From: Candidatus Nitrosacidococcus sp. I8
GTDB taxonomy: Bacteria; Pseudomonadota; Gammaproteobacteria; Nitrosococcales; Nitrosococcaceae
Direction: 5' to 3'
Length of the DNA: 64,000 bases
Assembly: GCF_945836005.1 (NCBI RefSeq)
Contig: NZ_OX241534.1
Location: 62,001 to 126,000, forward strand
Shown here: piece by piece, positions 16,224-53,020 of the stretch
How the letters are laid out: every line of letters starts with the position of its first letter
Numbering within the stretch: the stretch's first letter is position 1
Program-made: the position numbers and the translations under genes
The notes under the pieces: model-generated
What the model was told of the DNA's origin: nothing
The model's database searches: none
The model's input: the letters and a program-made list of their open reading frames with translations, nothing else

Positions 16224-16240
16224 AATTTATTTAGTATTTC

Positions 16241-19555: not shown

Positions 19556-19565
19556 AAAATAAGTA

Positions 19566-19766: not shown

Positions 19767-19799
19767 GGTATTTCCCCTTTTAGATTTAGTTAATATTTT

Positions 19800-30252: not shown

Positions 30253-32196
30253 ATGTTCTTTAAAAGAAGAAGTCTAAAGCAAGTCAAGAGTGTAATACTT
30301 ATTGCTATCAATTTTTGGAGTATATCTCCTAGACTATGGGGTATAAATTTAAATCCAGATAATGTAGGAGATGCTTTAGTATTTCCTTATTACACAGTTG
30401 CCAATAGTTTTAATACATCTATTTCTCTTACCAATACTACCGATCAAGTTAAAGAAGTTAAAGTTCGGTTTCGAGAAGGAGAAAATGGCTGGGAGGTACT
30501 TAGTTTTCATCTCTATCTTTCACCTAAAGATAACTGGATAGGAACATTAACTTCTAGTGATAACGGTGTACTGATAAATACATCAGATAAATCCTGCACT
30601 ATTCCCTCTATTCCTCTAGGAGGACTCCTCTTCAAAACTAGTGGATTCACTCAAAATAATAATGGAAAAATAGAAGCAATTGATGGCGGTTTGGGTACAC
30701 CTCAAAGCCGATTAACACAGGGTTACATAGAAATATTAGAGATGGGGGTGATTAATAATCCAGAAAACAATCCAAGTTTTACTCCTGCAACCGATGCAAC
30801 TCATACAAATGGAATCCCAAATAACTGCCAAGCTTTAACAGATGCTTGGAATCAAGGTGCTTGGGTAGATGGTGTAATTTCAGACCATACAGCAGGTGTC
30901 TCCAGTCCCACAGGAGGACTCACAGGCACTGGAATAATCGTAAATGTTGCACAAGGAACTAGCTATAGCATAAAACCGATCGTTATTGATCATACTTTCT
31001 ATAATATAGGTGCGGTTAACCATCTTCCACCACAAGTCTATGGACCAGATTTCTCTAGTGCTGATATTACCAGCCAGATAATTAAAGACAAAGTAATCAC
31101 GACAAATTGGTCCGGTGTAGGTCAATCATTTTCTGGGTATACGAATAATCCTAATCAAGAGGCTATAATTCGAGGCAACCCTACGCAAGGAGTTAATGCG
31201 GTCAGTGCAATACTGATGAGCAATACAGTTTTTAACCAGGTCACTATTGATCCTAGTTTAGCCGGAGAAACTTCATGGATACTTACTTTTCCTACCAAGT
31301 GGTACTATACGCCCTTAAATAATTTAAGTTCAAATGCTGGAATAGCTCCATTCACTAGTAGCTTTGGGGCAACAGGTGCTCCAGAAAATATAGGAATTAC
31401 TCTATTTGATAGAGAAGAAGGGAAAAAGCAGGCTACTTTATTTTCAATATCTACTTCAGCGACAAATGTACTACCTTGGGCAGTCAATATCTTTAGCTAC
31501 AGCCAAGACTCTGAAACAAACATACCATTGAGTACTTCCAACTTAGAATCAAGTATTGTTACGGGAGAGGAAGTTTTTAACGGGTGGGTTAAAGCTCATT
31601 TAGCCACTGATCTTCATCAGCAATTAAAAGCCAAAGACGGTACCATATATTATGGTTTGCCAGTGACTGGATTTAGCGTACAACAATTTAAAAGCAGCTA
31701 TGCCGATACCACTAGCTTTTTCAGTAGTTCGTATGCTCATAGCTTTCAATCTTGTATTTCTACCGCCGATCCTGCCCCATGTAATCAAAACAATACATCT
31801 ATCAACGTAAATCAACCTACCCCTCCAATAACTACTCCAGCTCCAACTCCAGACATAGAGACGATGATTCAAACTGCAGTAGCTGCTACAGAACAACCAG
31901 CAAAGCTTGCTGCGGTTCAAGCTGCATTTACTGCAGCCACCCAACTTAGTTCTCTAACCAGCATAGGTATTCATCAGCCTATCCAACCTAATTTCGAACC
32001 TATTGTAGTTGAAGCAGTACAAATTGCTACCGCTGCTGCAAAACAAGCCGCAACCACCGCAGCTACCCAAGCAGCTTTAGCAGAAAAAGCTCAAGCAGAA
32101 ATAAATCAAGCTGCCATGACTGCAGCTACCCATACAGCAACTATTACTGCAGTACAAACTGTGGCTAGTTTAATTAATTCAGAAGGTCTACATTAA
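30253..32196 (+). CDS. Secreted protein of the 'NLNPD-GDAL-FPYYT' family, paralog 1
   Basis: 647 residues; family not recognised by name. A hydrophobic N-terminus (SVILIAINFWSISPRLWG) is followed by INLNPDNVGDALVFPYYTV, then TSISLTNTTDQVKEVKVRFR. These blocks recur in the genes at 39.7 and 42.5 kb. The body of about 520 residues ends at a shared cysteine (SYAHSFQSC); after it the tail differs. Here it is proline-rich (TPPITTPAPTPD), then alanine/glutamine-rich, probably helical (about residues 535-640). The stop shares a base with the gspJ start (TAATG), tying it to type II secretion. I infer an exported surface or extracellular protein. The signal peptide is less canonical than in the other two copies. 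Confidence 0.75.
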   Translation: MFFKRRSLKQVKSVILIAINFWSISPRLWGINLNPDNVGDALVFPYYTVANSFNTSISLTNTTDQVKEVKVRFREGENGWEVLSFHLYLSPKDNWIGTLTSSDNGVLINTSDKSCTIPSIPLGGLLFKTSGFTQNNNGKIEAIDGGLGTPQSRLTQGYIEILEMGVINNPENNPSFTPATDATHTNGIPNNCQALTDAWNQGAWVDGVISDHTAGVSSPTGGLTGTGIIVNVAQGTSYSIKPIVIDHTFYNIGAVNHLPPQVYGPDFSSADITSQIIKDKVITTNWSGVGQSFSGYTNNPNQEAIIRGNPTQGVNAVSAILMSNTVFNQVTIDPSLAGETSWILTFPTKWYYTPLNNLSSNAGIAPFTSSFGATGAPENIGITLFDREEGKKQATLFSISTSATNVLPWAVNIFSYSQDSETNIPLSTSNLESSIVTGEEVFNGWVKAHLATDLHQQLKAKDGTIYYGLPVTGFSVQQFKSSYADTTSFFSSSYAHSFQSCISTADPAPCNQNNTSINVNQPTPPITTPAPTPDIETMIQTAVAATEQPAKLAAVQAAFTAATQLSSLTSIGIHQPIQPNFEPIVVEAVQIATAAAKQAATTAATQAALAEKAQAEINQAAMTAATHTATITAVQTVASLINSEGLH

Positions 32197-32870
32197 TGAC
32201 TACTTTGGTAAATAGTCATTCCCATAGCCAAAAAATATCAGGATTTACTTTAGTAGAATTACTCATCGCCATTACCTTAATGGGCATTATTCTAGTGATT
32301 CTTTTTGCTGGGTTGCGGCTAGCTACTCGTAGTTGGGAAGGAGTGGAAAGCAAAAATAGTGCTACTGAACGCTTTAGAGTCATCAATCATCTCTTTCGCC
32401 ACCAAATTCGCTCCTTAAGCTTACCTTTTTATATGGTGCCAAATCGGGGAAGAGTGTTAGCATTTTCTGGATCTGAGCAAAGTATTTCTTTTGTCGCTCC
32501 TTTTTTAGAGGAGCTAGATTTGGGTGGACTATATTGGATTACTTATGAGCTAACATATAAGGACGGTGAAGCAACACTTGTGATGTATTGGCGACCCTAT
32601 CGTCCTAATGAGCAGCAAATCAACAATTCAGATCAGGAGATACTTCTGGAGAATATTTCTACAATTCGTTTTTCTTACTTTGGTGCTCTAAACCAAAACT
32701 TAGGATCTAATTGGTATAGTTATTGGGATAATCCCACTCAGCCCCCACAATTAGTACAATTGAAAATTGAAACTAATGATATGGAATGGCCCGAAATTGT
32801 TGCTAAAATTCAGGTTGATCCTCAAAATACGATGGGAGGGGGTGCAGGAGCAATTCGTTTTGGTCGCTAA
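32196..32870 (+). CDS. gspJ: Type II secretion pseudopilin GspJ-like
   Basis: 224 residues. SGFTLVELLIAITLMGIILV is the prepilin cleavage site and helix: Gly before Phe, Glu at +5. The rest resembles minor pseudopilin GspJ (WEGVESKNSATERFRVINHL and later IRFSYFG). It would be processed by PilD and join the tip of the pseudopilus. Its start overlaps the stop of the secreted protein by one base, so translation of cargo and secretion component is coupled. The GspG, GspH and GspI pseudopilins are not in this window. Confidence 0.82.
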   Translation: MTTLVNSHSHSQKISGFTLVELLIAITLMGIILVILFAGLRLATRSWEGVESKNSATERFRVINHLFRHQIRSLSLPFYMVPNRGRVLAFSGSEQSISFVAPFLEELDLGGLYWITYELTYKDGEATLVMYWRPYRPNEQQINNSDQEILLENISTIRFSYFGALNQNLGSNWYSYWDNPTQPPQLVQLKIETNDMEWPEIVAKIQVDPQNTMGGGAGAIRFGR

Positions 32871-33789
32871 TAAATCAAAAGACACAAAAAACTGTGGTAT
32901 TGCCCTTGTAATTGTATTATGGGTCATTACTTTAGTTGCCGTTATTGCCAGTAGTTTTACCTATACAGTTCGGGTTGAAACCAACTTAGTTACCCACTTA
33001 ACAGAGCAAGCAGAAGCCAGAGCTCTAGCTGAAGGAGGAGTTGCTTATGCTGCTTTTGATTTACAACGCCCTATGGGTCGCCAATTTACCCCCGATGGAA
33101 CAATCTATTCTTGGCTAATCGATAATAACGTTGTTGCCATCTCAATACAGGATGTAAGTGGTTTAATTGATATTAATACAGGCAATGTTAATCTTTTTAT
33201 AGGATTGCTTATTACTATAGGTATACCAAACCAAGAGGTATTTCCTTTAATAGATAAAATTAAAGACTGGACTGATCCGGATAATATTCGCCAACCTCAA
33301 GGTGCAGAAAGTCAAGATTATATAGCAGCTGGACTATCTCATGGTCCTAAAAATGGACCTTTTGAAAATATTATCGAGCTACAACAAATATTGGGCATGA
33401 CCTCTGAACTATATCAACAAATAGCTCCCTTTGTTACGATATTTTCTAAACAAGGAGGCATTAATCCAAGTGTAGCTCCTCCCGAAGTATTAATGGCTAT
33501 TCCAGGAACTACTCCAGATTTAATTGAATCCTATATACAAGCACGAGAAACAAGAAAATTACAAGGGCAAAGCCCTCCTGTTCTTCCCACGGGTGCTGAA
33601 TTTCAGGGTTTAAATGGAGGGCAGACCTATAAAATACGATCAGAGGTTGAAATTATTAATGGTGGCAGTGCGATCGCTGAGGCGATTATTTCCGTTAATA
33701 GCACGGGATCTGGTACTGTTGCAGTACAAGGAGTAGGAGCAAGGTCCGTAATGCCTAATCTTAGCGTGTTTGAATGGAAAAGTGATTAG
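32860..33789 (+). CDS. gspK: Type II secretion minor pseudopilin GspK-like
   Basis: About 309 residues from a TTG at 32860, overlapping the end of gspJ by 11 bases. An ATG at 32767 would add 31 residues unlike the family. Upstream GCAGGAG at 32844-32850 supports the TTG. The N-terminus NCGIALVIVLWVITLVAVIA is a prepilin-like helix with an unusual NCG-IALV junction. VSGLIDINTGN and helix-hairpin-type segment LMAIPGTTPDLIESYIQAR are typical of GspK. It caps the pseudopilus. Part of the gsp operon. Confidence 0.83.
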   Translation: MVANKSKDTKNCGIALVIVLWVITLVAVIASSFTYTVRVETNLVTHLTEQAEARALAEGGVAYAAFDLQRPMGRQFTPDGTIYSWLIDNNVVAISIQDVSGLIDINTGNVNLFIGLLITIGIPNQEVFPLIDKIKDWTDPDNIRQPQGAESQDYIAAGLSHGPKNGPFENIIELQQILGMTSELYQQIAPFVTIFSKQGGINPSVAPPEVLMAIPGTTPDLIESYIQARETRKLQGQSPPVLPTGAEFQGLNGGQTYKIRSEVEIINGGSAIAEAIISVNSTGSGTVAVQGVGARSVMPNLSVFEWKSD

Positions 33790-33830
33790 TTTTTATTTGG
33801 TACTGTCTTAAATTTCAATTACTAAATATT

Positions 33831-34955
33831 TTGCGTGCAATGGGTTTTTTAACACTAAAATGGTCTAACCGAACTGGACAGAACTCTTTTAAAAATTTTC
33901 TCACTTCTTCTCCCGGATTAAATCGATTTTTTGCTTGGTGGTGGGAAGGGCTAAAGTATTGTATACCTCAATCCTTACAAAAATTCCTATGGAAAGAAAA
34001 AACAAAAATTATCCTCACGCCACAGGGCGATGGGCTACGCATTATTCGTGATCAAAAAGGTCAACAGGAGGAAGTGGGATTTTATGATGGTGCTCAACAT
34101 TGGGATAGCATATTATTTGGAGAAAACAACCAGCTTATCTTTAGATTATTCCCCAAACACACCTTGGTTAAGCGTATAGAGCTTCCCTTAGCGGCAGAAG
34201 AAAATCTTCGCCAAGTTCTTGCCTTTGAAATGGAGCGATATACTCCATTTAACGCTAACCAAGTATATTACGATTACACAATTATTAATCGCTATACAAG
34301 TGGGACAAAAAAAATTGTAGTAGATCTCGCCCTTGTACCTAAGAAGATTTTAACGCAGTGGCTCACTAAACTAACAAAATGGGATTTACAGCCAGAAAGA
34401 GTAGATGTGGTAGGTGCCCAGTATGAAGGGCAAATTAACTTATTACCTTTAGAATCTCGTGCGCATAAAACCCTAACACTACAAAGCAAAATTGCCTTTG
34501 CTCTAGGGACCTTGTTTTTCCTGCTCATTGTTGCTGCACTATTATTACCTCTATGGCAAGAGCGCTCAATAGTCATTAAACTTATGGCAGAAACAACTGC
34601 AGCACAACTCCAAGCTAATAGAGTAATTACCATTCGTAATCAAGTAGATGAAGCAGTTGAAAACTCGGAATTTCTTGCAATCCAAAAAGGGCAAGCACCT
34701 ATTATTATAAATTTGCTCTATGAACTTACCCGTTTATTCCCAGATAGTATTTGGATTACCCAATTTACTATTAATAAAGATCAAATAGATATTCAAGGAG
34801 AAGCACAGGAAGCTTCTGCTCTAATCACCTTATTAGAGAATTCTTCTTATTTTGAGCAGGTACAATTTCGATCTCCAGTAACTACTAACCAAGTAACAAA
34901 TAGAGATCGTTTTCACATTACTGCTCGACTTTTATTACTAGAAGCTACTCCATGA
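33831..34955 (+). CDS. gspL: Type II secretion GspL / PilM-like with PilN-type C-terminus
   Basis: 374 residues. The first ~230 are a cytoplasmic actin-like domain (LTPQGDGLRIIRDQKGQQEE, LPLAAEENLRQVLAFEMERY). One membrane helix follows (IAFALGTLFFLLIVAALLLP), then a periplasmic ferredoxin-like domain (LTRLFPDSIWITQFTINKDQ). This is the GspL plan, which recruits the ATPase to the inner membrane; fused PilM-PilN proteins look similar. The start could be the ATG at 33840 rather than 33831. The end overlaps gspM by four bases (ATGA). Confidence 0.8.
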   Translation: MRAMGFLTLKWSNRTGQNSFKNFLTSSPGLNRFFAWWWEGLKYCIPQSLQKFLWKEKTKIILTPQGDGLRIIRDQKGQQEEVGFYDGAQHWDSILFGENNQLIFRLFPKHTLVKRIELPLAAEENLRQVLAFEMERYTPFNANQVYYDYTIINRYTSGTKKIVVDLALVPKKILTQWLTKLTKWDLQPERVDVVGAQYEGQINLLPLESRAHKTLTLQSKIAFALGTLFFLLIVAALLLPLWQERSIVIKLMAETTAAQLQANRVITIRNQVDEAVENSEFLAIQKGQAPIIINLLYELTRLFPDSIWITQFTINKDQIDIQGEAQEASALITLLENSSYFEQVQFRSPVTTNQVTNRDRFHITARLLLLEATP

Positions 34956-35569
34956 GATCTATTTCTCTAGATAACTTACCTAAAAAATGGCATAGTGTAG
35001 CTGCTATCGGGCTACTACTTGTAGTATTATTTTTATTATACCTAATAACTCTACAACCTATCCTAGACAAACATAAGTATTATCGGGATAATATTGAAAC
35101 TTCTACCCAGAAACTAAATCGCTATCGACGAATTATTGCCCGCGAGCCAGAATTAACTGCAAAGCTTGAAAAGCTTAATCAAGATCAAAGCCACAATCAT
35201 CTTTATCTAGGACAACAATCAGACGCATTAGCTGCTACGCAACTCCGCCAATGGGTAAAAACAGCAGTAGAATCAAGTGGTGGTATTTTAACTAGCACCC
35301 AAAATTTACCGATTATTAACAATAAAAATTTTTTTAAAATTGGAATCAAGATTCGATTAAGCGGAGGGGTAAATATGCTGAGGCAATTATTTTATACTCT
35401 GGAGTCTCATCGCCCTTTACTCTTTATAGAAAATATTCAAATCTCAGGACGACAAATTCGCCAGCGTAGCCGTATTGATCCTAAAAATATTATTGAAAAA
35501 ACCGAGTTGACTGTAAATTTTGATTTATATGGGTATATGAGAGGTACAAGTGAGGCAATTAAGCCCTAG
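34952..35569 (+). CDS. gspM: Type II secretion GspM-like protein
   Basis: 205 residues. One N-terminal helix (VAAIGLLLVVLFLLYLITLQP), a coiled-coil linker rich in Lys/Asn/Arg (HKYYRDNIETSTQKLNRYRR) and a periplasmic domain with VNMLRQLFYTLESHRPLLFI (tail typical of GspM/PilO). GspM pairs with GspL in the inner membrane platform. It overlaps gspL by four bases and the next gene by 20, so translation is tightly linked. Confidence 0.8.
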   Translation: MRSISLDNLPKKWHSVAAIGLLLVVLFLLYLITLQPILDKHKYYRDNIETSTQKLNRYRRIIAREPELTAKLEKLNQDQSHNHLYLGQQSDALAATQLRQWVKTAVESSGGILTSTQNLPIINNKNFFKIGIKIRLSGGVNMLRQLFYTLESHRPLLFIENIQISGRQIRQRSRIDPKNIIEKTELTVNFDLYGYMRGTSEAIKP

Positions 35570-36149
35570 GTATAAGATTCTTATTTTAGGGTTAATTAGT
35601 CTATGTGCTTTAATGATATTAATCATTCTTTGGGAATTAAAATTTCCAGTTACTGCAAATAAAAGCTTAGAATCATCTTCATTTTCTGGGCTAGGGGCAG
35701 AATCTGAAAAAGAACAAAGTCTAAAAAAAGATTCTTTGAATAATACTCTCCCCCCTTTGACTCATTATCAGGAAATCATTGCACGTCCCTTATTTCACCC
35801 AGATCGTAAACCATTGGATCCAGAGGAGGAAGATGAAGATAATCTTACCCCTGAAGAACGTGCTAGAAGAAGTAAAAATAATAAACAAATAGAGCAACCA
35901 TCTATTAAAGATCGATTTACTTTAAATGGCATAGCAATGGATGGAGGCAAGGCAGTAGCATTGTTAGAGGATCATAAGGAGAAAAAGATACTGCGTCTCT
36001 CCCAAGGAGAACAACTAGAGAACTGGAAAATTCAGAATATCCTCTCTCATAGTGTAGTTTTTAGTCTAAAAAATCGTACTGAAACTTTAGATTTAGTGCG
36101 AATTTTTGCCTCTAACCCTAAAAAAGCTACTCGACCCATCAAACGATAG
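35550..36149 (+). CDS. GspC/GspN-type inner-membrane secretion protein
   Basis: 199 residues. One helix near the N-terminus (ILILGLISLCALMILIILWE), then a charged linker. The HR-like domain begins ARPLFHPDRKPLDPEE and ends in LNGIAMDGGKAVALLEDHKE and LRLSQGEQLENWKIQNILSH, resembling the homology region of GspC that contacts the secretin; short proteins of this kind are often annotated GspN. An acidic insert (EEEDEDNLTPEERARRSKN) splits the domain. It sits between gspM and gspD. I cannot decide between the GspC and GspN names. Confidence 0.72.
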   Translation: MRQLSPRYKILILGLISLCALMILIILWELKFPVTANKSLESSSFSGLGAESEKEQSLKKDSLNNTLPPLTHYQEIIARPLFHPDRKPLDPEEEDEDNLTPEERARRSKNNKQIEQPSIKDRFTLNGIAMDGGKAVALLEDHKEKKILRLSQGEQLENWKIQNILSHSVVFSLKNRTETLDLVRIFASNPKKATRPIKR

Positions 36150-36215
36150 ACAGTATTCTATTCTTTATATTAGAAAATTCCAGACGCCAAGTACTTTAAA
36201 ATTCTTATCTATAAT

Positions 36216-38870
36216 ATGCCACCTAAGTTATTAGTTTTTCTGTTTTTACCTAAAAAAATATCAAAAAAGTGGAATTTCTTACAATTTTATGGGGTACTTG
36301 TAAGCATTTTAGTTTTTTTTACTGCCTGCAGTAGCCATCTCTCTCACTTTCCAACCACACGAAGCCGTGTAGATCCAAAAAAATCTAAAGAAACAACACA
36401 AGTAGCAACCACTACGCCCTTATCAGAAGGTAAATCTCTCCAACATCTATCTAAACAAGAGCAGTCTAAAGGATTGAGTAAAAATGGAGAGATTAAAATG
36501 GCTAAAGAAGATAAAGATAAAGATAAAAAAACAAAAGCTGATCGCTACCCTGGTAATAATCAATTTTTTAACCAAAAAGCAGCTCAAAAACCACAAGAAT
36601 TCCAGCTAGTAGAAGGAGCGGTTTTACTTAATTTTGAAAACACAAGTATTCAAGAGGTCGTCAAAACTCTACTTGGGGACATTTTAGAAGAAAACTATGT
36701 GATTGACCCTGCAATTCAAGGTGTGGTGACGGTACAAACGGGTCGCCCCTTAGGAAAAAATATGCTTATTCCTACCTTAGAATCTCTATTAGGCATGAAT
36801 GGGGCAGCCCTCGTGCGTGTACAAGGGATGTATAAAGTGATTCCAGCTAATCAAGCTATTCCAGGTAATCTTACGCCTCATCTAAAGATGACCTCTGGAC
36901 AGGGAGGTATTGGCTATCAGGTGCGGATTGTTCCTTTAAAATATATTGGTGCTGGGGAAATGGAAAAAATTCTGACTCCATTTGTGCCAGAAGGATCCAT
37001 TATACGAGTTGATCCAGTACGCAGCTTAATTATCTTAGCAGGCAGTCATCAAGAGCTAGATCAATGGCAAGAGACCGTCGATATTTTTGATGTCAATTGG
37101 CTGAAAGGCATGTCTGTTGGGCTTTATCGCCTAAAACAAAGTGATGCCACTGCTATTTCTCAAGCACTAGAAACCCTATTTGGTCCTGAGGCAAATACCC
37201 CACTGGCAGGTATGTTTCGGATGGTACCCCTTGAGCAGCTCAATGGGATTTTAGTCATTACATCCCAGTCTGAATACTTAAAAGAGGCAGAAACTTGGAT
37301 TAAACGCCTAGATTTAGGTGAGCAAGAAGAAGATCAAGAACACTTTTATTTTTATCAAGTGCAAAATGGAGTGGCCGAAGATCTAGCCATGCTACTACAG
37401 GAAACTTTTGGTATTGAAGGAAGTGGTTCTGCAGGAGGGGGTGGTCGAGTTGCCCCTGGTCAGCAAAGAAGCAGTTTATCCTCAGGTGGTATGGGTAGAA
37501 GCGGTGGTATGGGGGGAGGGATGAGTGGTGGCATGGGCAGTAGTGGTGGCATGGGTATGAGTGGCGGTGGATTTGGCAGTAGCGGTGGTATGAGTGGTGG
37601 TGGCACCAGGGCTTCATTTAAAGCAACTAAAAAAACTACCCATCTAGAATCTAATACACAAATAAATAGCTTGGAAAACCCAGAGGTGATTGCCTACCCA
37701 GCTGGGGCTGATGAAGGTGGCTCAAAGACTAAGCTTAAAGCATTAGGAGCAGCACTGAAGGGAAAAAATAAAAAAGAACAAGAGGAGCCTGAAGTACGGA
37801 TCGTACCAGATATTACTAATAATGCTTTATTGATTGCCGCAAAACCACCTATGTACGAAAAAATTAAAGCTGTACTCAGACAAGTAGATATTCCACCACG
37901 GCAAGTTTTAGTCGAGGCTTCCATTGCAGAAGTACAACTATCAGGAAATCTGAGCTTAGGTATTGAATGGTTTTTTAAAAATGCGATTGGTAAAGGTAAT
38001 GGTAATGATAATTTCGGTGGTACTGGGGTGAGTAACTCAGGATTTCCGCTCAGTCCTATGACTAGTGCAGCAGTTCCGGGTGGATTTACCTATGCGGTCA
38101 CTAGCGGTGCTTCAGTCAATGCTTTATTAAATATGGCAGCTCAAGAAAGTAAGCTCAATGTACTTTCTTCACCCCAGCTGTTAGTATTAGATAATCAAAC
38201 GGCTCAAATTATGGTAGGGTCTCAGGTGCCAATTTTATCTAGTCAAGCTGCCCTAGGTGGTATTGCTGGCGGTGGTGCACTCACTTCTCAAGTACAATAT
38301 AAAAACACAGGTGTGATGCTTGCAGTTACCCCGAGGGTAAACGCCGGTGGGCGAGTCACCCTTGAAATTGATCAACAGGTCACTGATGTGGGCGCTAGCC
38401 TTAAGTCAGGAGGCATTGATAACCCAACCTTCTTGCAAAGAGCTTTTCAAAGTGTAGTGACCGTTCAAGACGGTCAAACCATTGTCTTAGGTGGATTAAT
38501 TCAAACCAATGATACCTTTAATAAATCAGGGATACCTGCCTTGTACAAAATCCCTATTATTGGTAATCTCTTTGGTTCTACCACCAATGGTAAAAAGCGT
38601 ACCGAATTAGTAGTTCTCATGACTCCAAGAGTAGTAGAAAATCAAACCGATGCTACCTTAGTGACCAATGAGATGCGGAAGAAAATGAAATATGCCGAAG
38701 ATGTCATAAGCAATGAACGTATTGTAGAGCAAACTAATGTAAGAACGCATATGGGGGACGTAGATGTGATAGGCAATCAAGAACCCATTGGGTATGGTCC
38801 TGTGCCTTATGAAGATCCAACACGCTTAAATGATCAAGAAGATTTAGATCAAAATACCACCTATCACTAG
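36216..38870 (+). CDS. gspD: Type II secretion outer-membrane secretin, probable lipoprotein
   Basis: 884 residues. A hydrophobic segment ends in a lipobox-like FFTACSSH, with Cys at residue 38. A Lys/Asp-rich linker follows, then N0-N3 domains (LNFENTSIQEVVKTLLGDIL; VRIVPLKYIGAGEMEKILTP). The secretin core has VLVEASIAEVQLSGNLSLGI, SSPQLLVLDNQTAQIMVGSQ and TVQDGQTIVLGGLIQ. Between N-domain repeats at about residues 420-468 lies a run made mostly of Gly, Met and Ser (37482-37610), probably a flexible loop. Lipidated secretins such as HxcQ insert without a pilotin, so this one may too. It is the last gene of the gsp operon. Confidence 0.9.
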   Translation: MPPKLLVFLFLPKKISKKWNFLQFYGVLVSILVFFTACSSHLSHFPTTRSRVDPKKSKETTQVATTTPLSEGKSLQHLSKQEQSKGLSKNGEIKMAKEDKDKDKKTKADRYPGNNQFFNQKAAQKPQEFQLVEGAVLLNFENTSIQEVVKTLLGDILEENYVIDPAIQGVVTVQTGRPLGKNMLIPTLESLLGMNGAALVRVQGMYKVIPANQAIPGNLTPHLKMTSGQGGIGYQVRIVPLKYIGAGEMEKILTPFVPEGSIIRVDPVRSLIILAGSHQELDQWQETVDIFDVNWLKGMSVGLYRLKQSDATAISQALETLFGPEANTPLAGMFRMVPLEQLNGILVITSQSEYLKEAETWIKRLDLGEQEEDQEHFYFYQVQNGVAEDLAMLLQETFGIEGSGSAGGGGRVAPGQQRSSLSSGGMGRSGGMGGGMSGGMGSSGGMGMSGGGFGSSGGMSGGGTRASFKATKKTTHLESNTQINSLENPEVIAYPAGADEGGSKTKLKALGAALKGKNKKEQEEPEVRIVPDITNNALLIAAKPPMYEKIKAVLRQVDIPPRQVLVEASIAEVQLSGNLSLGIEWFFKNAIGKGNGNDNFGGTGVSNSGFPLSPMTSAAVPGGFTYAVTSGASVNALLNMAAQESKLNVLSSPQLLVLDNQTAQIMVGSQVPILSSQAALGGIAGGGALTSQVQYKNTGVMLAVTPRVNAGGRVTLEIDQQVTDVGASLKSGGIDNPTFLQRAFQSVVTVQDGQTIVLGGLIQTNDTFNKSGIPALYKIPIIGNLFGSTTNGKKRTELVVLMTPRVVENQTDATLVTNEMRKKMKYAEDVISNERIVEQTNVRTHMGDVDVIGNQEPIGYGPVPYEDPTRLNDQEDLDQNTTYH

Positions 38871-39171
38871 CTAGATTCTAGAATAGGGCTCGTTTATATC
38901 TAATCATTATGAGGAATTTTAAGTACTAAACCCCTTGATTTTATGAATTCAAGAGCTTTAATTTATTGTGAATCTTAATTACTGCTTTATATAATGAGTT
39001 TGATAATAGATTAACTTCTAATAAATTAATAAATTAGTGTAATCATTTATTGTATTTTCTAAAAAGAAAATTTATAATTCAATTTTGTTGAATTTTTATA
39101 AATATCGCTTAAGATAAAAGAACTTATAGCAACCATCGTTAACCTATACTATTTAGAAAAGTAGTAATCTT
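38871..39171. other. AT-rich intergenic region between gspD and the lipoprotein gene
   Basis: 301 bases, strongly AT-rich, with no ORF of note and no T-tailed hairpin that I can see. It presumably contains the end of the gsp transcript and a promoter for the lipoprotein gene. An ATTTAT/TATTT-rich stretch at 38990-39110 is compatible with a UP element or promoter, but I cannot fix -35 and -10 boxes. Confidence 0.5.
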
Positions 39172-39600
39172 TTGTTAAATCGAAGCCTTATTCAAATATT
39201 GACTCACTTACTAGGGTTGACCTTGCTCTTAGGTTTATTTAGCCTCATAGGGTGTACTCTTAAAATACCGGTAGAGCAACAAGTAGGACAGAGAACAGTC
39301 GCCCGCTGGCAAGCTTTAATTACTCAAAATTGGCAAGGAGCTTATAGTTATCTTAGTCCCGGATATCGAGGAGTTCATTCCCTAGATCTTTATAAATCTC
39401 GTTTTGGTAATGCAGTACATTGGGAAAATATTGAACTCACCAAAGTCTCCTGTGAGGAGACCTTGTGTAATGTAGTGTTAAATTTAACATTTACTTATAC
39501 TGGTCATGTGGGTCAAATGGTGCCGGGACAACATAAGCAAATTATTAAGGAGAAATGGATCAAAGAGCAAGATCAATGGTGGTATTATATCCCAAAATAA
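39172..39600 (+). CDS. Small lipoprotein of unknown function next to the secretin
   Basis: 142 residues from a TTG start. The hydrophobic LLGLTLLLGLFSLIGCTLK ends in a canonical lipobox (L-I-G-C). The mature part contains RWQALITQNWQGAYSYLSPG and a tryptophan-rich C-terminus (EKWIKEQDQWWYYIPK), similar to NTF2-like lipoproteins that are common in proteobacteria. No known function. Because it sits between the secretin and the tandem secreted proteins, a role in secretion or in outer-membrane assembly of the locus is plausible but not shown. Confidence 0.7.
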   Translation: MLNRSLIQILTHLLGLTLLLGLFSLIGCTLKIPVEQQVGQRTVARWQALITQNWQGAYSYLSPGYRGVHSLDLYKSRFGNAVHWENIELTKVSCEETLCNVVLNLTFTYTGHVGQMVPGQHKQIIKEKWIKEQDQWWYYIPK

Positions 39601-39606
39601 CTATAT

Positions 39607-39630
39607 ATGGTTTTTAAAATTAAAAACCAT
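39607..39630 (+). terminator. Possible terminator after the lipoprotein gene
   Basis: Perfect 10-bp stem atggttttta / taaaaaccat with loop aaat, six bases after the stop codon. The following sequence is only moderately T-rich. It may be a weak terminator or attenuator before the next gene. Confidence 0.45.
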
Positions 39631-39653
39631 GGTTATTCTTCATTAAAAAATTG

Positions 39654-41361
39654 TAACAAGGAGATAATATAGAATGAAAAAGACAAAACTAGCCACCGCC
39701 CTAGCTCTAGCAGTAGGTGTTGGAGCGTGGCAAGGTGCTCAAGCAGTTAACCTAAACCCAGATGGATCAGGCGATGCCCTTTATTTTCCGTACTATACGG
39801 TACGGACTTCTGATAGTGGCAGTGCTATGACTACCTCCATTGTCATTGTTAATACCACCAATCAAACAAAAGAAGTTAAAGTTCGTTTTCGTGAAGGAAA
39901 AAATAGCTGGGAAGTCTTAGACTTTGATGTCTACCTCTCTCCTCAAGATATATGGACCGGTGCGCCACTATGAGTCCAAACGGAGGGGGTATGCTCTCTA
40001 CCGCTGATACCTCCTGTACCGTGCCAGCAATTCCTCAAGGAGGAGTAGAATTTATCCCCAGTGAATTTTCTAATCTGAGCTCCTCTGTTTATTTCCCTGA
40101 TGGTGCTGGAGAAGGGTTAGATCGTACTACAGAAGGTTATGTAGAAATTCTAGAGATGGGGGTTATCAACGATACTTCTGACGCTGCTACGGGAACTAAT
40201 GCAAGTTTAAGCTCAGGGCAACAATTTACCCCAGCCACTTGGGCCAAGCATAACAGTGCAGGGATGCCTAACAATTGCCAAGCGTTAGTTAATGCGTGGA
40301 CAGATGGTAATTGGTCTACCATAGGTAACGTGAGTGGGGTGAGCGAGCCCACGGGTGGATTAATGGGAGAGGCCAATATTATTGATGTGGCCGATGCGGT
40401 TAACTATGGGGTCAATGCGGTTGCAATTGATCACACCTTCCAGGGAACCGGTACTGCTAACCATGTACCATTAGGTACCGATGAGCCTAATCTGGCCAGT
40501 GCAGCTACTACCAGCAATGTCTTTACTCCAGGAGAATCTAGTCAAGTTGCCACAGATACTTGGGCGGGTAATTTTAAATTTGCAAAATACTTATCTACCC
40601 CTACTGCTCCAGTGTTGATGAATGGCTGCCCTACCAATGGGGTAGATGCAGTCAGTGCAACTTTAATGCGCAGTGCGATTATGAATCAATATACCATTGA
40701 TACTGGCTTAAATGCGGGGACCGATTGGGTGATTACCCAACCTACCAAATGGTATTACGTGCCATTTCAAAATCCAAGCAGCTCTGGCTCTAGTGGCACT
40801 ACGATCAATGGAGATCAAAACGGTAATATTAATACTTTCTGTACCAGTGCAGGCGTTTCTAACCCAGGTAGTGCCCCTACTGCAGCAGTTGCTCCTTATA
40901 CGGTAGTGTTTAATGCCAATGGGAAAGGTACCGCTCCAGAGCCTATTAATGCCACCATTTATGGCAGAGAAGAACAGGTGGCTATTGGTCAAACCAGCAC
41001 GATTGGTTTTTCCCCACGCCCTGTAGTTCAAGGGGTAAGCAATGCATTACCTTATGAAGTCACAGTACTGAGCTTTAACAGCCAAAGTAATACCTCTGTG
41101 TTAGGATCACAGCTACTCAATGTCATTCAGAGTAGTGGTAATATTCAGCCCAGTGGTTGGGTTAATCTGGACTTAACCCCTAGCCATACTATGAAAGGAA
41201 CCAATACGTTTCTTGGCTTACCTGTCATTGGTTTTGCAGTAGAGCGGTTCCAAAATGGGGTAGTACAATCAGGCGTACTGAATAACTTTGGTGCTGAGTT
41301 TATCCATACCTATGAGCGCTGTGTCAATGGTACCATAGCAAATGGTATATGCACTACCGGA
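39654..41361 (+). repeat. Long direct repeat, copy A
   Basis: This 1.7-kb segment is repeated at 42493-44202. Every line I compared was identical except that copy A lacks one T after 39965 and copy B has one additional G at about 43374. The repeat starts ten bases before the shared ribosome site (AAGGAG) and ends inside the C-terminal coding region, where the tails diverge. The low divergence points to recent duplication or continuing gene conversion. Confidence 0.95.
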
Positions 41362-41391
41362 GTATCAGCATCAACGAAACCAACACCTTAA
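39674..41391 (+). pseudogene. Secreted 'NLNPD' family protein, paralog 2 (single-base frameshift)
   Basis: A single T is missing after 39965 compared with copy B, so the reading frame breaks after about 97 residues and resumes in the next frame to 41391. Corrected, the protein would be about 572 residues. It has a clear signal peptide (MKKTKLATALALAVGVGAWQ, cleavage near QGAQA), NLNPDGSGDALYFPYYTVR, the KEVKVRFREGKNSWEVLDFD block and a cysteine-ended body (FIHTYERC). The tail is short (TTGVSASTKPTP). An AAGGAG ribosome site precedes the ATG and a strong terminator follows. The indel could be real or a sequencing error, because copy B is intact at this point. It matches the paralog at 30.3 kb in the NLNPD, VRFRE and final Cys blocks. 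Confidence 0.75.
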
Positions 41392-41418
41392 TTAGGTTAT
41401 TAGGTTAGTGGTAATACT

Positions 41419-41448
41419 AAGGGCAGGGGATTTCCCCTGCCCTTTTTT
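41419..41448 (+). terminator. Rho-independent terminator after paralog 2
   Basis: GC-rich stem gggcagggg / cccctgccc with loop attt and a run of six T. It isolates paralog 2 from the parvulin gene. Confidence 0.93.
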
Positions 41449-41491
41449 ATAGAGTATAATAATCCGTTTAATTTCTATTAATAACTAAGTT

Positions 41492-42433
41492 GTGAAAATA
41501 AAGAAATTTTTTTATAGCCTAGGAATTACTATAAGCTTGTATTTTTATACAAATGCACATGCTGTTGACAACCAGAAAATCGTTCCTTTTATTGAATATA
41601 AAAATATCACGGTTACTCCAGCAGATTTTGGAGCTGCACTTGCTGGCTATCCTTACCAATATCGAGAAGAAATTGCACAGCATGCTAAACAAGTTAATGA
41701 TATTATTAATCATGTTTTCTTATATCGAGTACTAGCTCAAGAAGCGAGAGATTTAAAATTAGAACAAGATCCTGAAGTGCAGAGGCAAATCCAAATTGCA
41801 ATAGAAACAGCCCTAGGTAAAGCAAGGTTAAACCTATTACGCCAGCAAGCATTAGCTAAAGATCCAGATTATGAGACTCTTGCTAAAGAACAATACCGAG
41901 CTAATAAAGATCAGTATCAGTTACCTGCACAAGTAGACGTTGCTCATATTATTATTAAGTCTAAAGAAAATAACGAAGCAGCTGAAGAAGAAGCCAAACA
42001 ACTTGCGGAAAAAATACAAAAACAAGCCCTTGAGAAAAAACAATCTTTTGCTGATTTAGCCCTTGAATATTCCCAAGACCCTAGCGTAAAAGAAAATAAA
42101 GGGGATATAGGGTGGATTGCACATGGGGATACTGTCGAACCTTTTGAGGAAACTGCTTTTGCTCTAAAAAAAATAGGTGATATAAGCCCTGTTGTTAAAA
42201 CTCAATTCGGCTATCATATAGTTTCCTTAAAAGGTCGCAAACCTGCTCGATTACAATCCTTCAATGAGGTAAAGGATAGCCTTATTCAGAGTATTAAAAC
42301 TAACTATGCTGAACAAATTACCCAGCAACATATTGAAGCAATTAATAAAGCAAAAGAGGTAGAAGTTAATTATGAAGCAATTAATGAATTTATTCAGTCT
42401 ATGAAACAAAAAAATAAAGATAGTAATTTTTAA
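41492..42433 (+). CDS. Periplasmic parvulin-type peptidyl-prolyl isomerase
   Basis: 313 residues from a GTG start. Signal peptide-like N-terminus (KIKKFFYSLGITISLYFYT, then NAHA). A helical chaperone-like part (residues about 30-145) precedes a rotamase domain: VDVAHIIIKSKENNEAAEEE, FADLALEYSQDPSVKENKGD, FGYHIVSLKGRKPA. This is the PpiC/SurA/PrsA plan: a periplasmic folding helper. It lies exactly between the two near-identical secreted proteins, so a folding role for them is the natural inference. A Lys/Asn-rich C-terminus ends in KQKNKDSNF. Confidence 0.85.
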   Translation: MKIKKFFYSLGITISLYFYTNAHAVDNQKIVPFIEYKNITVTPADFGAALAGYPYQYREEIAQHAKQVNDIINHVFLYRVLAQEARDLKLEQDPEVQRQIQIAIETALGKARLNLLRQQALAKDPDYETLAKEQYRANKDQYQLPAQVDVAHIIIKSKENNEAAEEEAKQLAEKIQKQALEKKQSFADLALEYSQDPSVKENKGDIGWIAHGDTVEPFEETAFALKKIGDISPVVKTQFGYHIVSLKGRKPARLQSFNEVKDSLIQSIKTNYAEQITQQHIEAINKAKEVEVNYEAINEFIQSMKQKNKDSNF

Positions 42434-42492
42434 GATGAATCCTAATAAATTTTTTACTTCCCTAACTAAATAATAAACATCTATTATTAAGC

Positions 42493-44202
42493 TAACAAGG
42501 AGATAATATAGAATGAAAAAGACAAAACTAGCCACCGCCCTAGCTCTAGCAGTAGGTGTTGGAGCGTGGCAAGGTGCTCAAGCAGTTAACCTAAACCCAG
42601 ATGGATCAGGCGATGCCCTTTATTTTCCGTACTATACGGTACGGACTTCTGATAGTGGCAGTGCTATGACTACCTCCATTGTCATTGTTAATACCACCAA
42701 TCAAACAAAAGAAGTTAAAGTTCGTTTTCGTGAAGGAAAAAATAGCTGGGAAGTCTTAGACTTTGATGTCTACCTCTCTCCTCAAGATATATGGACCGGT
42801 GCGCTCACTATGAGTCCAAACGGAGGGGGTATGCTCTCTACCGCTGATACCTCCTGTACCGTGCCAGCAATTCCTCAAGGAGGAGTAGAATTTATCCCCA
42901 GTGAATTTTCTAATCTGAGCTCCTCTGTTTATTTCCCTGATGGTGCTGGAGAAGGGTTAGATCGTACTACAGAAGGTTATGTAGAAATTCTAGAGATGGG
43001 GGTTATCAACGATACTTCTGACGCTGCTACGGGAACTAATGCAAGTTTAAGCTCAGGGCAACAATTTACCCCAGCCACTTGGGCCAAGCATAACAGTGCA
43101 GGGATGCCTAACAATTGCCAAGCGTTAGTTAATGCGTGGACAGATGGTAATTGGTCTACCATAGGTAACGTGAGTGGGGTGAGCGAGCCCACGGGTGGAT
43201 TAATGGGAGAGGCCAATATTATTGATGTGGCCGATGCGGTTAACTATGGGGTCAATGCGGTTGCAATTGATCACACCTTCCAGGGAACCGGTACTGCTAA
43301 CCATGTACCATTAGGTACCGATGAGCCTAATCTGGCCAGTGCAGCTACTACCAGCAATGTCTTTACTCCAGGAGGAATCTAGTCAAGTTGCCACAGATAC
43401 TTGGGCGGGTAATTTTAAATTTGCAAAATACTTATCTACCCCTACTGCTCCAGTGTTGATGAATGGCTGCCCTACCAATGGGGTAGATGCAGTCAGTGCA
43501 ACTTTAATGCGCAGTGCGATTATGAATCAATATACCATTGATACTGGCTTAAATGCGGGGACCGATTGGGTGATTACCCAACCTACCAAATGGTATTACG
43601 TGCCATTTCAAAATCCAAGCAGCTCTGGCTCTAGTGGCACTACGATCAATGGAGATCAAAACGGTAATATTAATACTTTCTGTACCAGTGCAGGCGTTTC
43701 TAACCCAGGTAGTGCCCCTACTGCAGCAGTTGCTCCTTATACGGTAGTGTTTAATGCCAATGGGAAAGGTACCGCTCCAGAGCCTATTAATGCCACCATT
43801 TATGGCAGAGAAGAACAGGTGGCTATTGGTCAAACCAGCACGATTGGTTTTTCCCCACGCCCTGTAGTTCAAGGGGTAAGCAATGCATTACCTTATGAAG
43901 TCACAGTACTGAGCTTTAACAGCCAAAGTAATACCTCTGTGTTAGGATCACAGCTACTCAATGTCATTCAGAGTAGTGGTAATATTCAGCCCAGTGGTTG
44001 GGTTAATCTGGACTTAACCCCTAGCCATACTATGAAAGGAACCAATACGTTTCTTGGCTTACCTGTCATTGGTTTTGCAGTAGAGCGGTTCCAAAATGGG
44101 GTAGTACAATCAGGCGTACTGAATAACTTTGGTGCTGAGTTTATCCATACCTATGAGCGCTGTGTCAATGGTACCATAGCAAATGGTATATGCACTACCG
44201 GA
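42493..44202 (+). repeat. Long direct repeat, copy B
   Basis: Second copy of the 39654-41361 segment, offset 2839 bases before the first indel and 2841 after the second. It includes the ribosome site, signal peptide and the whole conserved body. Identity stops at the codon after the last shared Cys-containing block, where the Gly/Thr/Ser tail starts. Confidence 0.95.
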
Positions 44203-44802
44203 TCATCTGGAACTAGCACAGGTGGTACTGGGACAGGAACTAGCACTGGAACTAGCACAGGTGGTACTGGAACAGGAACTAGCACTGGAACTAGCACAGG
44301 TGGCACCGGAACAGGAACTAGCACAGGTGGTACTGGAACAGGAACTAGCACTGGAACTAGCACAGGTGGTACTGGAACAGGAACTAGCACTGGAACTAGC
44401 ACAGGTGGCACCGGAACAGGAACTAGCACAGGTGGTACTGGAACAGGAACTAGCACTGGAACTAGCACAGGTGGCACCGGAACAGGAACTAGCACAGGTG
44501 GCACCGGAACAGGAACTAGCACAGGTGGTACTGGAACAGGAACTAGCACTGGAACTAGCACAGGTGGCACCGGAACAGGAACTAGCACAGGTGGTACTGG
44601 AACAGGAACTAGCACTGGAACTAGCACAGGTGGCACCGGAACAGGAACTAGCACAGGTGGTACTGGAACAGGAACTAGCACTGGAACTAGCACAGGTGGC
44701 ACCGGAACAGGAACTAGCACTGGAACTAGCACAGGTGGCACCGGAACAGGAACTAGCACAGGTGGTACTGGAACAGGAACTAGCACAGGTGGTACCGGTT
44801 AA
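42513..44802 (+). pseudogene. Secreted 'NLNPD' family protein, paralog 3 with Gly/Thr/Ser repeat tail (frameshifted)
   Basis: Compared with copy A, one G is inserted at about 43374 (GGAGGA for GGAGA). Residue 288 is then followed by Gly-Ile and a TAG at 43380-43382; the remaining protein is open in the next frame to the TAA at 44802. Corrected, it would have about 762 residues: signal peptide, the conserved body, and a 197-residue tail of only Gly, Thr and Ser. If translated from the first ATG as given, the product is a 289-residue N-terminal fragment. The same AAGGAG ribosome site drives translation. Indel could be an assembly error or a real inactivation; copy A is intact at this point. Confidence 0.75.
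44209..44799 (+). repeat. Coding tandem repeat of 27-bp and 12-bp modules
   Basis: The array encodes 18 GTSTGGTGT modules (27 bp; the last lacks its final codon) and nine GTST modules (12 bp) interspersed, 197 codons in all. Only codons for Gly, Thr and Ser occur, with GGTACTGGA/GGCACCGGA as the main variation. Both unit lengths are multiples of three, so gain or loss of units changes tail length but keeps the frame. A low-complexity stalk or a dense target for O-glycosylation are possible roles. Confidence 0.95.
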
Positions 44803-44908: not shown

Positions 44909-45697
44909 ATGATCATCCCACTTATTTTCCAGTCTCGAAGTATTTTTTACCAACTTTGGCTACGGGAAATTAAAAATCGCTATTTAGGCAGTATTAGCGG
45001 TTATCTGTGGGTATTGTTTCAGCCTATTGCCCAATTGGCGTTGTACGCTTTAGTGTTTGCCACCATTTTTAAAGTTCGTTTTCCAGAGCTGGCACAACAT
45101 AGTTTTGTGGAATTTGTTGCCATTGCCCTATGGCCTTGGCTGGCTTTTCAAGAAGGAATTCAGCGAGCCTTAGGGGCGATTACTAATCATGCTCATGTAC
45201 TTAAAAAAGTCGCTCTAGCTCCAGAATTACTCATTTATAGCACGGTAGGGGGAAGCTATGCCGTTCATGGCACAGGGTTTTTATTCATTTTAGCCATTTT
45301 AACAATATTCGGTGCCCACATTCATCTACTGATGCTTCCTTGGGTTCTATTATTACTAGGATTATGGTTGTTGTTTACGTTAGGATTAGCGTTTATATTA
45401 GCCGCCTTACAAGTATTTTTTCGGGATATGGAGCATATTTTAGCCTCTGTTTTAATGCTCTTGTTTTACGCCTCCCCCATTCTCTATCCCATTTCTCTAG
45501 TGCCTGAACCTTTCCATACCTTACTATTACTCAACCCCTTGAGTTATTTTTTTGATCACCTACGGGAATTATTGCTGTTCGGCGAGATGAGTTTTAGTGT
45601 GATAGATGGAGTAGCTGTTTTGTTAAGTGCTGCTCTTTTTGCCGTTGGGTTATGGTTTTTCCGCCGCTGTGCTCATCAGTTTGAAGCTTTTTTATAA
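44909..45697 (+). CDS. wzm: ABC-2 type polysaccharide export permease
   Basis: 262 residues, six membrane helices, in the size range of Wzm. The amphipathic start SRSIFYQLWLREIKNRYLGS, a shared feature of ABC-2 polysaccharide/teichoic acid permeases, is followed by SISGYLWVLFQPIAQLALYA. It moves an undecaprenyl-linked glycan across the inner membrane with the following ATPase. The gene begins 25 bases after the terminator and is followed by wzt after 17 bases. Confidence 0.9.
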   Translation: MIIPLIFQSRSIFYQLWLREIKNRYLGSISGYLWVLFQPIAQLALYALVFATIFKVRFPELAQHSFVEFVAIALWPWLAFQEGIQRALGAITNHAHVLKKVALAPELLIYSTVGGSYAVHGTGFLFILAILTIFGAHIHLLMLPWVLLLLGLWLLFTLGLAFILAALQVFFRDMEHILASVLMLLFYASPILYPISLVPEPFHTLLLLNPLSYFFDHLRELLLFGEMSFSVIDGVAVLLSAALFAVGLWFFRRCAHQFEAFL

Positions 45698-45714: not shown

Positions 45715-46893
45715 ATGGGTAAAAAATTACTGATTGAGGTCAGCCATTTAAGCAAATCCTACCCAAAATTAACCACTGCTTCCCATCGGTTTCACGCCTT
45801 AAAAGCCATTTTAAAAGGCAAAAATGACTACCCCGCTCAACCAGTATTAGAAGATATTTCTTTTTCCCTCTATCAAGGAGAATCCTTAGGCATTATTGGA
45901 GAAAATGGGGCAGGAAAATCCACCCTGTTAAAACATATTGCCGGAGTGATCCCATCTTCCCAAGGTAAGGTGCAGGTTTTTGGTCGGATTGGGGCTTTAC
46001 TAGAGCTAGGGGCAGGATTTCATCCAGAATATACTGGACGAGAAAACCTATGGCTTTCAGGAGCGTTAATGGGAATGAGCCAAGGGGAGATTAAAGATAA
46101 CCTTGAGCAAATCATCAGCTTTGCTGATATTAGATCTTATATCGATTCCCCTATTAAGCATTATTCTTCTGGGATGGTAGTTCGTCTTGGTTTTGCCTTA
46201 ATGACTGCTCTAAAGCCTGAAATTTTAATTACCGATGAAGTCTTAGCAGTAGGTGATGAATCTTTTCAAAAAAAATGCATTCAGTGGCTAGAGAATTATT
46301 TAACTCAAGGAGGCACTTTATTACTCTGTTCCCATAGTATGTTCCATATCCAAAAACTATGCCAAAAAGCCCTTTGGATTCACCAAGGGCAGGTGATGGA
46401 TTATGGGGATGCCTTTGGGGTTAGCCAGGCCTATTTAAGCTACCATGAGAAAAAGACAAGCCCTCAAAGGGTGAAATTTGAAGTTACAGCCAAAAATACT
46501 TCTGCCACTTATCACCTGACAGAACTCGTCCTTGAGGGGGATAACTTTCCTCAAATTCCTATGGGAGGACAGCTCAAAGTCAAGGGGATGGTTTATTCTC
46601 CAGATAATCGACCTCCGGTGGTTGCCATCGGGATTATTCGTGCCAATAGGGCAGAGATTTATGGCTTAATTTCCGATATTGATCGCATGGTACTTCAGCC
46701 AGTAGTGGATCATCTTTTTACTTTTCAGCTGGTATTTCCTAATATTGCTTTATTGCCCGGTCAATATACGCTTCGTGCTCATGGGATGGATCCAGAAGGG
46801 GTACGGCTGTTTGATACGATGGAGCAAACTTTTCAAGTGACTGGGCAAACCAGGGAATTAGGCGTGTGTCGTCTTGATCATGAATGGCAGTAA
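45715..46893 (+). CDS. wzt: ABC polysaccharide export ATPase with C-terminal glycan-binding domain
   Basis: 392 residues. ATPase part: GIIGENGAGKSTLLKHIAG (Walker A), YSSGMVVRLGFAL (signature), EILITDEVLAVGDESFQKKC (Walker B). From about residue 250 an added beta domain (SATYHLTELVLEGDNFPQIP) matches the carbohydrate-binding C-terminal domain of Wzt proteins, which recognise the modified end of a finished chain. This predicts a capping step before export; the methyltransferase at 48410-50017 is a candidate. The end overlaps the next gene by 20 bases. Confidence 0.9.
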   Translation: MGKKLLIEVSHLSKSYPKLTTASHRFHALKAILKGKNDYPAQPVLEDISFSLYQGESLGIIGENGAGKSTLLKHIAGVIPSSQGKVQVFGRIGALLELGAGFHPEYTGRENLWLSGALMGMSQGEIKDNLEQIISFADIRSYIDSPIKHYSSGMVVRLGFALMTALKPEILITDEVLAVGDESFQKKCIQWLENYLTQGGTLLLCSHSMFHIQKLCQKALWIHQGQVMDYGDAFGVSQAYLSYHEKKTSPQRVKFEVTAKNTSATYHLTELVLEGDNFPQIPMGGQLKVKGMVYSPDNRPPVVAIGIIRANRAEIYGLISDIDRMVLQPVVDHLFTFQLVFPNIALLPGQYTLRAHGMDPEGVRLFDTMEQTFQVTGQTRELGVCRLDHEWQ

Positions 46894-47788
46894 TAGATTT
46901 TCTGTTGCTCGATTTAAACAGGAAACTAAGGATTTTTTAGAGCGAATCCTAGTGCCGAGTATAGCAATATTGTTGCCTTGGGGCTGGGCGTTTCGTATTT
47001 TTCAATGGATAACCACCCACTGTCCATGGTTTTACGGTGCTCAAGGAAACGGAGCGCTTGCAGAAGCTCAACGAGTTATCCACATTGAAGATCCAGTGCA
47101 ATGGCTCTGGACTTATCGGCTAATTCAGTTAGTCGATCAGGGAGATTTATATTTATCCCGATGTCGCTCTCATCGCTGGATAGATCAATATATGCAAGTT
47201 ACTGGTACTTGGCCCAAACCTCCCTTTCTTGGGATTACCTTTCATTGGGGGGCAGGTCTATGGTCTTTGCGTCATTTACACACTCAAGGGATAAGTGCTG
47301 CTTTTTTATCTGCTCGCTTTAATAGAGCCAGTTTTCCCAAAAGATGGATAGCCTATGGGTATACTCGATTACGGATTAAAGAAATAAAACGTGCCAGCGG
47401 TAGCTCGGTCATCTATAAAGGGGGCAGTATTACTCAAATGAAAGCGGCAATCCATGAAGGCAAAGCAATTACTGCTCTAATAGATGTACCCCCTCGGGAA
47501 GTAGGGGCTTGTTTACCCATTAGTTTATTTGATCGGCAGGCTTGGTGGCCCAGTGGCTTGGTAAAGTTTGCGATTCGGGAGCAAATTCCCGTGGTAGCAT
47601 TTAGTGTGGGGATCAATCTAACTACTGGAATCCGCCAGCTTCACATTAGTGATCCATTATCTGGTGATAATCCTCAAGCATTTATGGAGTACTTGGCAGG
47701 TTATTTTTCTGATTTGATCACTCAAATGCCCCCTGCATGGCATTGTTGGGATTGGGTGGAAGAATTTTTTCATCATAAATCTCGTTAA
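46874..47788 (+). CDS. LpxL/HtrB-like acyltransferase family protein
   Basis: 304 residues. The fold is suggested by an N-terminal hydrophobic stretch and ITFHWGAGLWSLRHLH, EGKAITALIDVPPREVGACL and LFDRQAWWPSGLVKFAIREQ, the pattern of lipid A late acyltransferases. In that family the first motif is H-x4-E (or D); here the position after HWGAG is Leu, so the usual acidic catalytic residue is missing or moved. It may acylate a glycan lipid or be inactive. Position between wzt and a hexapeptide transferase indicates a role in surface glycolipid assembly. A start at 46880 is equally possible. Confidence 0.68.
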   Translation: MIMNGSNRFSVARFKQETKDFLERILVPSIAILLPWGWAFRIFQWITTHCPWFYGAQGNGALAEAQRVIHIEDPVQWLWTYRLIQLVDQGDLYLSRCRSHRWIDQYMQVTGTWPKPPFLGITFHWGAGLWSLRHLHTQGISAAFLSARFNRASFPKRWIAYGYTRLRIKEIKRASGSSVIYKGGSITQMKAAIHEGKAITALIDVPPREVGACLPISLFDRQAWWPSGLVKFAIREQIPVVAFSVGINLTTGIRQLHISDPLSGDNPQAFMEYLAGYFSDLITQMPPAWHCWDWVEEFFHHKSR

Positions 47789-47807
47789 TTTACCAAGCTG
47801 TTAAGTG

Positions 47808-48392: not shown

Positions 48393-48409
48393 CGAAAGAA
48401 ATTTAACTT

Positions 48410-52291: not shown

Positions 52292-52296
52292 AATAA

Positions 52297-52617: not shown

Positions 52618-52692
52618 TGGTTAGCTTATTAATATTCACTATTTTTAGCGTTATCGCTTAAGACAATTGTTACTTGGAGGTTAAAATAAGTG

Positions 52693-53013: not shown

Positions 53014-53020
53014 TTAGCTT

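Follow-up and report, generated by a model that had tools for sequence, protein, structure and literature searches.

"Candidatus Nitrosacidococcus urinae" I8 is an acid-tolerant gammaproteobacterial ammonia oxidiser with a circular genome of 1,848,551 bp (PMC9574496). Here, we analysed a 64,000-nucleotide stretch of this genome (the window; NZ_OX241534.1, positions 62,001 to 126,000), which carries, all on the + strand and in this order, a first gene of the NpdA family (copy 1), gspJ-K-L-M-C/N-D, a lipoprotein gene, copy A, a parvulin gene, copy B, genes for Wzm- and Wzt-type proteins and a polysaccharide cluster. The features, in positions of the window, are:

30253..32196, +: NpdA-family copy 1, 647 aa, with signal peptide, 'INLNPDNVGDALVFPYYT' and an Ala-rich C-terminal tail; the sole intact frame of the three copies
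32196..32870, +: gspJ, minor pseudopilin (Pfam N_methyl; NCBIfam GspJ-type PRK08808, 4e-20, below cut-off)
32857..33789, +: gspK (PF21687, 2e-19; NF037980, 2e-27, below cut-off)
33843..34955, +: gspL, PilM/PilN-like (PF05137, 4e-17)
34952..35569, +: gspM, XpsM type (NF040576, 4e-45, over cut-off; PF10741)
35550..36149, +: gspC/N-like gene (NF041515 GspC, 7e-9, below cut-off)
36216..38870, +: gspD, secretin with a long N-terminal extension (TIGR02517, 2e-148, over cut-off)
39172..39600, +: small lipoprotein, signal ending in LIGC, between gspD and npdA (a conserved position; own HMM)
39654..41361, +: repeat arm A, ribosome-binding site and npdA core; equals arm B except for two indels
39674..41391, +: NpdA-family copy A, frame broken, a base missing near 39965; a 479-aa ORF (39952-41391) reads the residues after the break
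41492..42433, +: periplasmic parvulin-type peptidyl-prolyl isomerase, 313 aa, with signal peptide (PF13616, 4e-28; PF00639, 9e-27)
42493..44202, +: repeat arm B, counterpart of arm A
42513..44802, +: NpdA-family copy B, put out of frame by an additional G near 43373; its tail is a Gly/Thr-rich repeat (44207-44798, in tandem)
44909..45697, +: ABC-2 permease, Wzm type (sequence; own HMM; annotated in Comamonas as 'ABC transporter permease')
45715..46893, +: Wzt-type ABC ATPase, extended at its C-terminus (sequence; own HMM; Comamonas annotation)
46874..50017, +: start of a surface-polysaccharide cluster with acyltransferase-like, acetyltransferase-like and methyltransferase ORFs (function by inspection of the ORFs)

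The six gsp genes named in the original prediction were recovered at 32196-38870 with Pfam and NCBIfam profiles, and the lipoprotein and the parvulin were found as well. The lipoprotein matched no Pfam or NCBIfam family, and an AlphaFold model of the parvulin alone, computed without an alignment (pLDDT 39), was not used. A long minus-strand ORF (44151-44786) across the Gly/Thr repeat was taken as a repeat artefact. Further downstream (52252-53042), a 393-bp tandem duplication, 87% identical, appears on reading to hold two small multidrug-resistance-type transporter genes.

The protein family of the three copies had been called unrecognised; judged by sequence, however, it is the already published NpdA S-layer family (PMC3110197, PMC10765051). 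NpdA was established as the S-layer protein of Paracidovorax citrulli and Delftia (strain Cs1-4) with mutants and electron microscopy (PMC3110197, PMC10765051). A 2023 report described npdA orthologs adjoining gsp genes for Nitrosococcus, Nitrosoglobus and "Ca. Nitrosacidococcus tergens" and names Ca. N. tergens, Ca. Nitrosoglobus terrae and four Nitrosococcus species as carriers; the conserved neighbour of npdA is a gsp cluster, located upstream (PMC10765051). The blocks shared by the paralogs proved real and far beyond chance, copies 1 and A being 45% identical over 272 residues (E 4e-56) and the blocks recurring in dozens of Gammaproteobacteria. A family profile was built on 96 members, and profile A2 aligned with a gsp-linked 'cell surface protein' of Comamonas odontotermitis over 442 columns (hhalign probability 100, E 5e-51). 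C. odontotermitis is an npdA species in Table 2 of PMC10765051, and homology to NpdA extends over the full length via this protein, not via the proven Delftia and P. citrulli sequences. The gene order in C. odontotermitis is gspE...D, a small protein, the NpdA-like protein, a peptidylprolyl isomerase, an ABC permease, an ABC ATPase and methyl-/glycosyltransferases. Other features of NpdA are found in I8 too: a signal peptide (by inspection), a mature size of about 50 kDa, no known domain, a core of about 450-480 residues, which copies 1 and B exceed through their tails, and a gsp cluster beside the gene. Searches of the NpdA-family proteins against Pfam and NCBIfam gave no family match, and a sequence search of solved structures likewise returned none. 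A scan of genome contigs with copy A alone yielded no relative, but an alignment-based scan did, and many of the named organisms it found also stand in the tables of PMC10765051 (Nitrincola alkalilacustris, Gilvimarinus agarilyticus, Pseudoteredinibacter isoporae and Ca. Nitrotoga fabula).

Owing to this family membership and the synteny, we consider it very probable that the locus encodes an NpdA-type S-layer together with most of the machinery making it. This supports the original prediction that a single unit exports a coat- or S-layer-like protein, an idea that was largely published already. Two observations were counted against the S-layer reading: two of the three npdA copies are frame-broken as assembled, and the main text of the Ca. 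N. tergens paper (PMC13170337) makes no mention of an S-layer. Could the family instead act in this lineage as an adhesin or matrix protein, secreted or fibrous, and form no lattice? Several tandem copies without gsp in some genomes (L075, L087) and the extended Gly/Thr- or Ala-rich tails of the I8 copies would fit such a role, which we nevertheless regard as very improbable: the lattice was lost in npdA mutants of two organisms, P. citrulli and Delftia only (PMC10765051, PMC3110197), an NpdA-like S-layer was seen by cryo-EM in 15 of 16 further npdA cultures (PMC10765051), and the S-layer of Nitrosococcus has been known for decades (PMC10765051, PMC3110197).

The original prediction of three paralogs stood in that family proteins are encoded at 30253-32196, about 39674-41391 and 42513-44802, but copies A and B are not intact paralogs. 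They share a 1.7-kb core that extends from 20 bp ahead of the start codon to the onset of the tails. Apart from a single base lacking in A and a single additional base in B, the two cores are identical, and each copy is put out of frame by the indel it carries. The tails differ, with nine residues in copy A and a long Gly/Thr-rich tandem repeat in copy B. In the tree, copies 1, A and B cluster, beside two copies of a Nitrosoglobus-like genome (G001). The I8 genome was assembled with NECAT from Nanopore reads, and MiSeq data were also taken (PMC9574496). Since an exact repeat of 1.7 kb offers short reads no unique position, and since the neighbouring unique genes are open, the simplest reading is that the two breaks are Nanopore consensus errors left in the repeat; we take this as most likely, and true pseudogenes as the less likely case. 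On this explanation, A and B arose by recent duplication or conversion and differ in their C-terminal tails. If the breaks were biological, A and B would be either truly broken genes or a contingency pair whose frame is repaired by gene conversion. It is true that the breaks occur at separate sites, neither of them in a long homopolymer, that the identical cores end in different tails, and that one Nitrosococcus-type genome also holds a family gene that looks degenerate (L030, G002:C2:823000-842000, at about 9660-10510; signal and first motif, then an internal deletion and a frame change). Yet an exact repeat in a NECAT assembly is beyond polishing by unique short-read mapping, and two independent lesions in otherwise identical copies are hardly to be expected, so that we judge biological breaks to be quite unlikely and continue with consensus errors.

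The window holds gspJ to gspD, which the original prediction had described as a partial operon. In the npdA clusters of Nitrosococcus and Nitrosoglobus, gspEFGHI are reported to be absent (PMC10765051), and the window shows this same gene set. In I8, a gspE-F-G-H-I operon was found outside the window, 33 kb after gspD (G000:133997-138337; ORF reading and a T2SSF match), which rules out that these genes are missing from the genome. The core set of a type II secretion system (T2SS), namely E, F, G, H, I, J, K, L, M and D, is hence complete in the I8 genome but split, with J to D in the window and E to I elsewhere. The gspD of the window is the only GspD-type secretin over the family cut-off in the whole genome; the system may for this reason export other proteins too, and the attribute 'dedicated' is unproven.

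How tightly the neighbouring genes are linked to npdA was assessed in the best 80 of 159 related loci, a set biased to similar ones, in which 44 loci span at least 19 kb (long loci). Among these 44, gsp genes occur in 37 and the parvulin in exactly the same 37, which agrees with the proximity expected by the original prediction; in the remaining seven, neither gsp nor parvulin lies within range of the family gene, and these were counted against it. The lipoprotein was found in 31, Wzm in 24 and Wzt in 27 of the 44 long loci (own HMMs), and in 30 of them gspD, lipoprotein, npdA and parvulin follow one another in this order on one strand. As a control, 40 gspD loci were taken from genomes sampled across the class. 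Only one had npdA; the other 39 contained the parvulin once and the lipoprotein never at the same threshold. The single parvulin-positive control locus (L193; G125:C20:37200-57100, 5400-19900) combines gspK-L-M-D, a 434-aa exported protein without a reliable NpdA match (hhalign 24%), the parvulin, a weak lipoprotein match and Wzm/Wzt, and may indicate that the cassette serves other surface proteins as well. A less biased class-wide sample contained the family in 8 of 274 genomes, I8 included. Of the four loci with sufficient flank, three had both parvulin and lipoprotein (L194, L211 and L212, not L215; small numbers), and no gsp genes were found near npdA at L211, L212 and L215. In this sample of small numbers, the linkage of gsp to npdA is thus looser than that of parvulin and lipoprotein. 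Given the class-wide sample and the control counts, parvulin and lipoprotein seem to be tied to npdA and not to gsp, and both stay with npdA at several gsp-free loci. The main text of PMC10765051 names neither parvulin, isomerase nor lipoprotein, and its supplementary neighbourhood figures may show the linkage.

Further loci extend this picture. Two Nitrosococcus-type relatives (G004 and G003; loci L028 and L032) possess another, divergent copy of the family, accompanied by parvulin and lipoprotein but with no gsp genes nearby. On a 373-kb Comamonas plasmid (NZ_CP083452.1), the whole unit of gsp genes, NpdA, isomerase, ABC transporter and O-antigen genes is present, so it can be plasmid-borne. 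The 35-kb Nitratiruptor plasmid pNitYY0826_PLS (328-9245) encodes two proteins that resemble NpdA in their N-terminal regions and, by annotation, a peptidylprolyl isomerase, and it gives a weak match to the lipoprotein; its host belongs to the Campylobacterota, outside the classes reported for NpdA.

These loci also bear on whether the T2SS serves general secretion and lies beside npdA by chance, with NpdA as one of many substrates or leaving by another route. The single GspD over the cut-off, the npdA loci of the class-wide sample without gsp nearby and the gsp-free second copies of the Nitrosococcus-type genomes all speak for it. On the other hand, gsp genes accompany npdA at 37 of the 44 long loci (best 80 of 159) in many genera, gsp and npdA travel as one unit on the Comamonas plasmid, and the presence of npdA at just one of 40 sampled gspD loci means that the linkage is no by-product of common T2SS genes. 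We consider a general system rather unlikely, though far from negligible, and prefer export of NpdA by the T2SS of I8.

We next considered the predicted structure of the protein. An AlphaFold2 model of the copy 1 body (pLDDT 89, pTM 0.92) is mostly beta. Its C-terminal domain resembles TM1070 (Z 9.9, rmsd 2.5, 110 of 116 residues, 8% identity; next rows near Z 5), and its N-terminal part shows a weak likeness to galectins (Z about 4-5); a Foldseek search of the model against the PDB gave no match at E < 0.001. The superfamily of TM1070 and the Anabaena sensory rhodopsin transducer (ASRAH) has been proposed to bind sugars (PMC2739507). The predicted C-terminal domain of NpdA shares its beta-sandwich fold; the ASRAH ligand motif SHE..C..N, however, occurs in none of the 96 family members and Pfam gave no match, and NpdA is not filed here as an ASRAH member. 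Because this motif is absent, we only hypothesise that the C-terminal domain of NpdA may bind sugars. Among the 96 rows, both cysteines of the pair 347/378 are kept in 77 and one alone in two, and the pair 85/162 is almost invariant. The two pairs behave like putative disulfides, in line with periplasmic folding before export.

Taken together, we propose the following route. The NpdA precursor would cross the inner membrane by Sec, guided by its signal peptide, and would then fold and form disulfides in the periplasm, aided by the co-encoded parvulin. Folded NpdA would leave the cell through the T2SS formed by the J-K-L-M-C/N-D proteins of the window and those of the E-F-G-H-I operon 33 kb away, and would assemble on the cell surface, where the layer is probably held by O-polysaccharide exported by the adjacent Wzm/Wzt. 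Delftia NpdA is cited in PMC3110197 as requiring LPS for self-assembly. Synteny, this LPS dependence, the lectin-like predicted fold and the wzm/wzt placement in Aeromonas suggest that the S-layer may be docked on O-polysaccharide. Tentatively, we go one step further: npdA, parvulin and lipoprotein could constitute a mobile S-layer module that brings along its folding helper and can be separated from the secretion system. In it, the lectin-like fold would dock on the O-polysaccharide from Wzm/Wzt, and coat protein, chaperone, exporter and anchor would be co-inherited.

The NpdA family and its gsp link have been known since 2023; less known are the parvulin, the lipoprotein and the sugar exporter travelling along. 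The present analysis contributes the species assignment, a T2SS completed by the second operon, the probable assembly errors, the parvulin/lipoprotein linkage with its controls, and the anchoring idea. A likely S-layer protein can now be named for an acid-tolerant ammonia oxidiser, and the T2SS, whose gspEFGHI genes are reported absent from the npdA cluster in related ammonia oxidisers, is complete in I8, though split. The controlled linkage points to parvulin and lipoprotein as candidate factors of S-layer folding and attachment, relevant to about a hundred npdA species in the literature, several of which can be cultured and genetically manipulated.

Other S-layer loci resemble that of I8 in gene layout. 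In Pseudoalteromonas tunicata, the gene for the S-layer protein Slr4 lies beside a T2SS operon (PMC7821379); Slr4 is treated as a separate S-layer protein in PMC10765051. The A-protein of Aeromonas is exported by a dedicated T2SS, as cited in PMC10765051. According to PMC4483657, the Aeromonas A-layer locus (vapA, SpsE-L T2SS) places T2SS and S-layer genes between wzm and wzt among O-antigen genes; the likeness drawn here is one of gene layout, and the passages on that locus name no parvulin. With NpdA of Delftia Cs1-4 and P. citrulli, the I8 proteins share the signal peptide, the lack of a Pfam domain and the gsp cluster upstream, and the sister species N. tergens is a listed carrier. Compared to the published NpdA systems, I8 differs in having three copies, two of them near-identical, with extended Gly/Thr- or Ala-rich tails, in a separate operon for gspE-I, and in Pro/Pro in place of the cysteine pair 347/378, as in the Nitrosoglobus-like genome.
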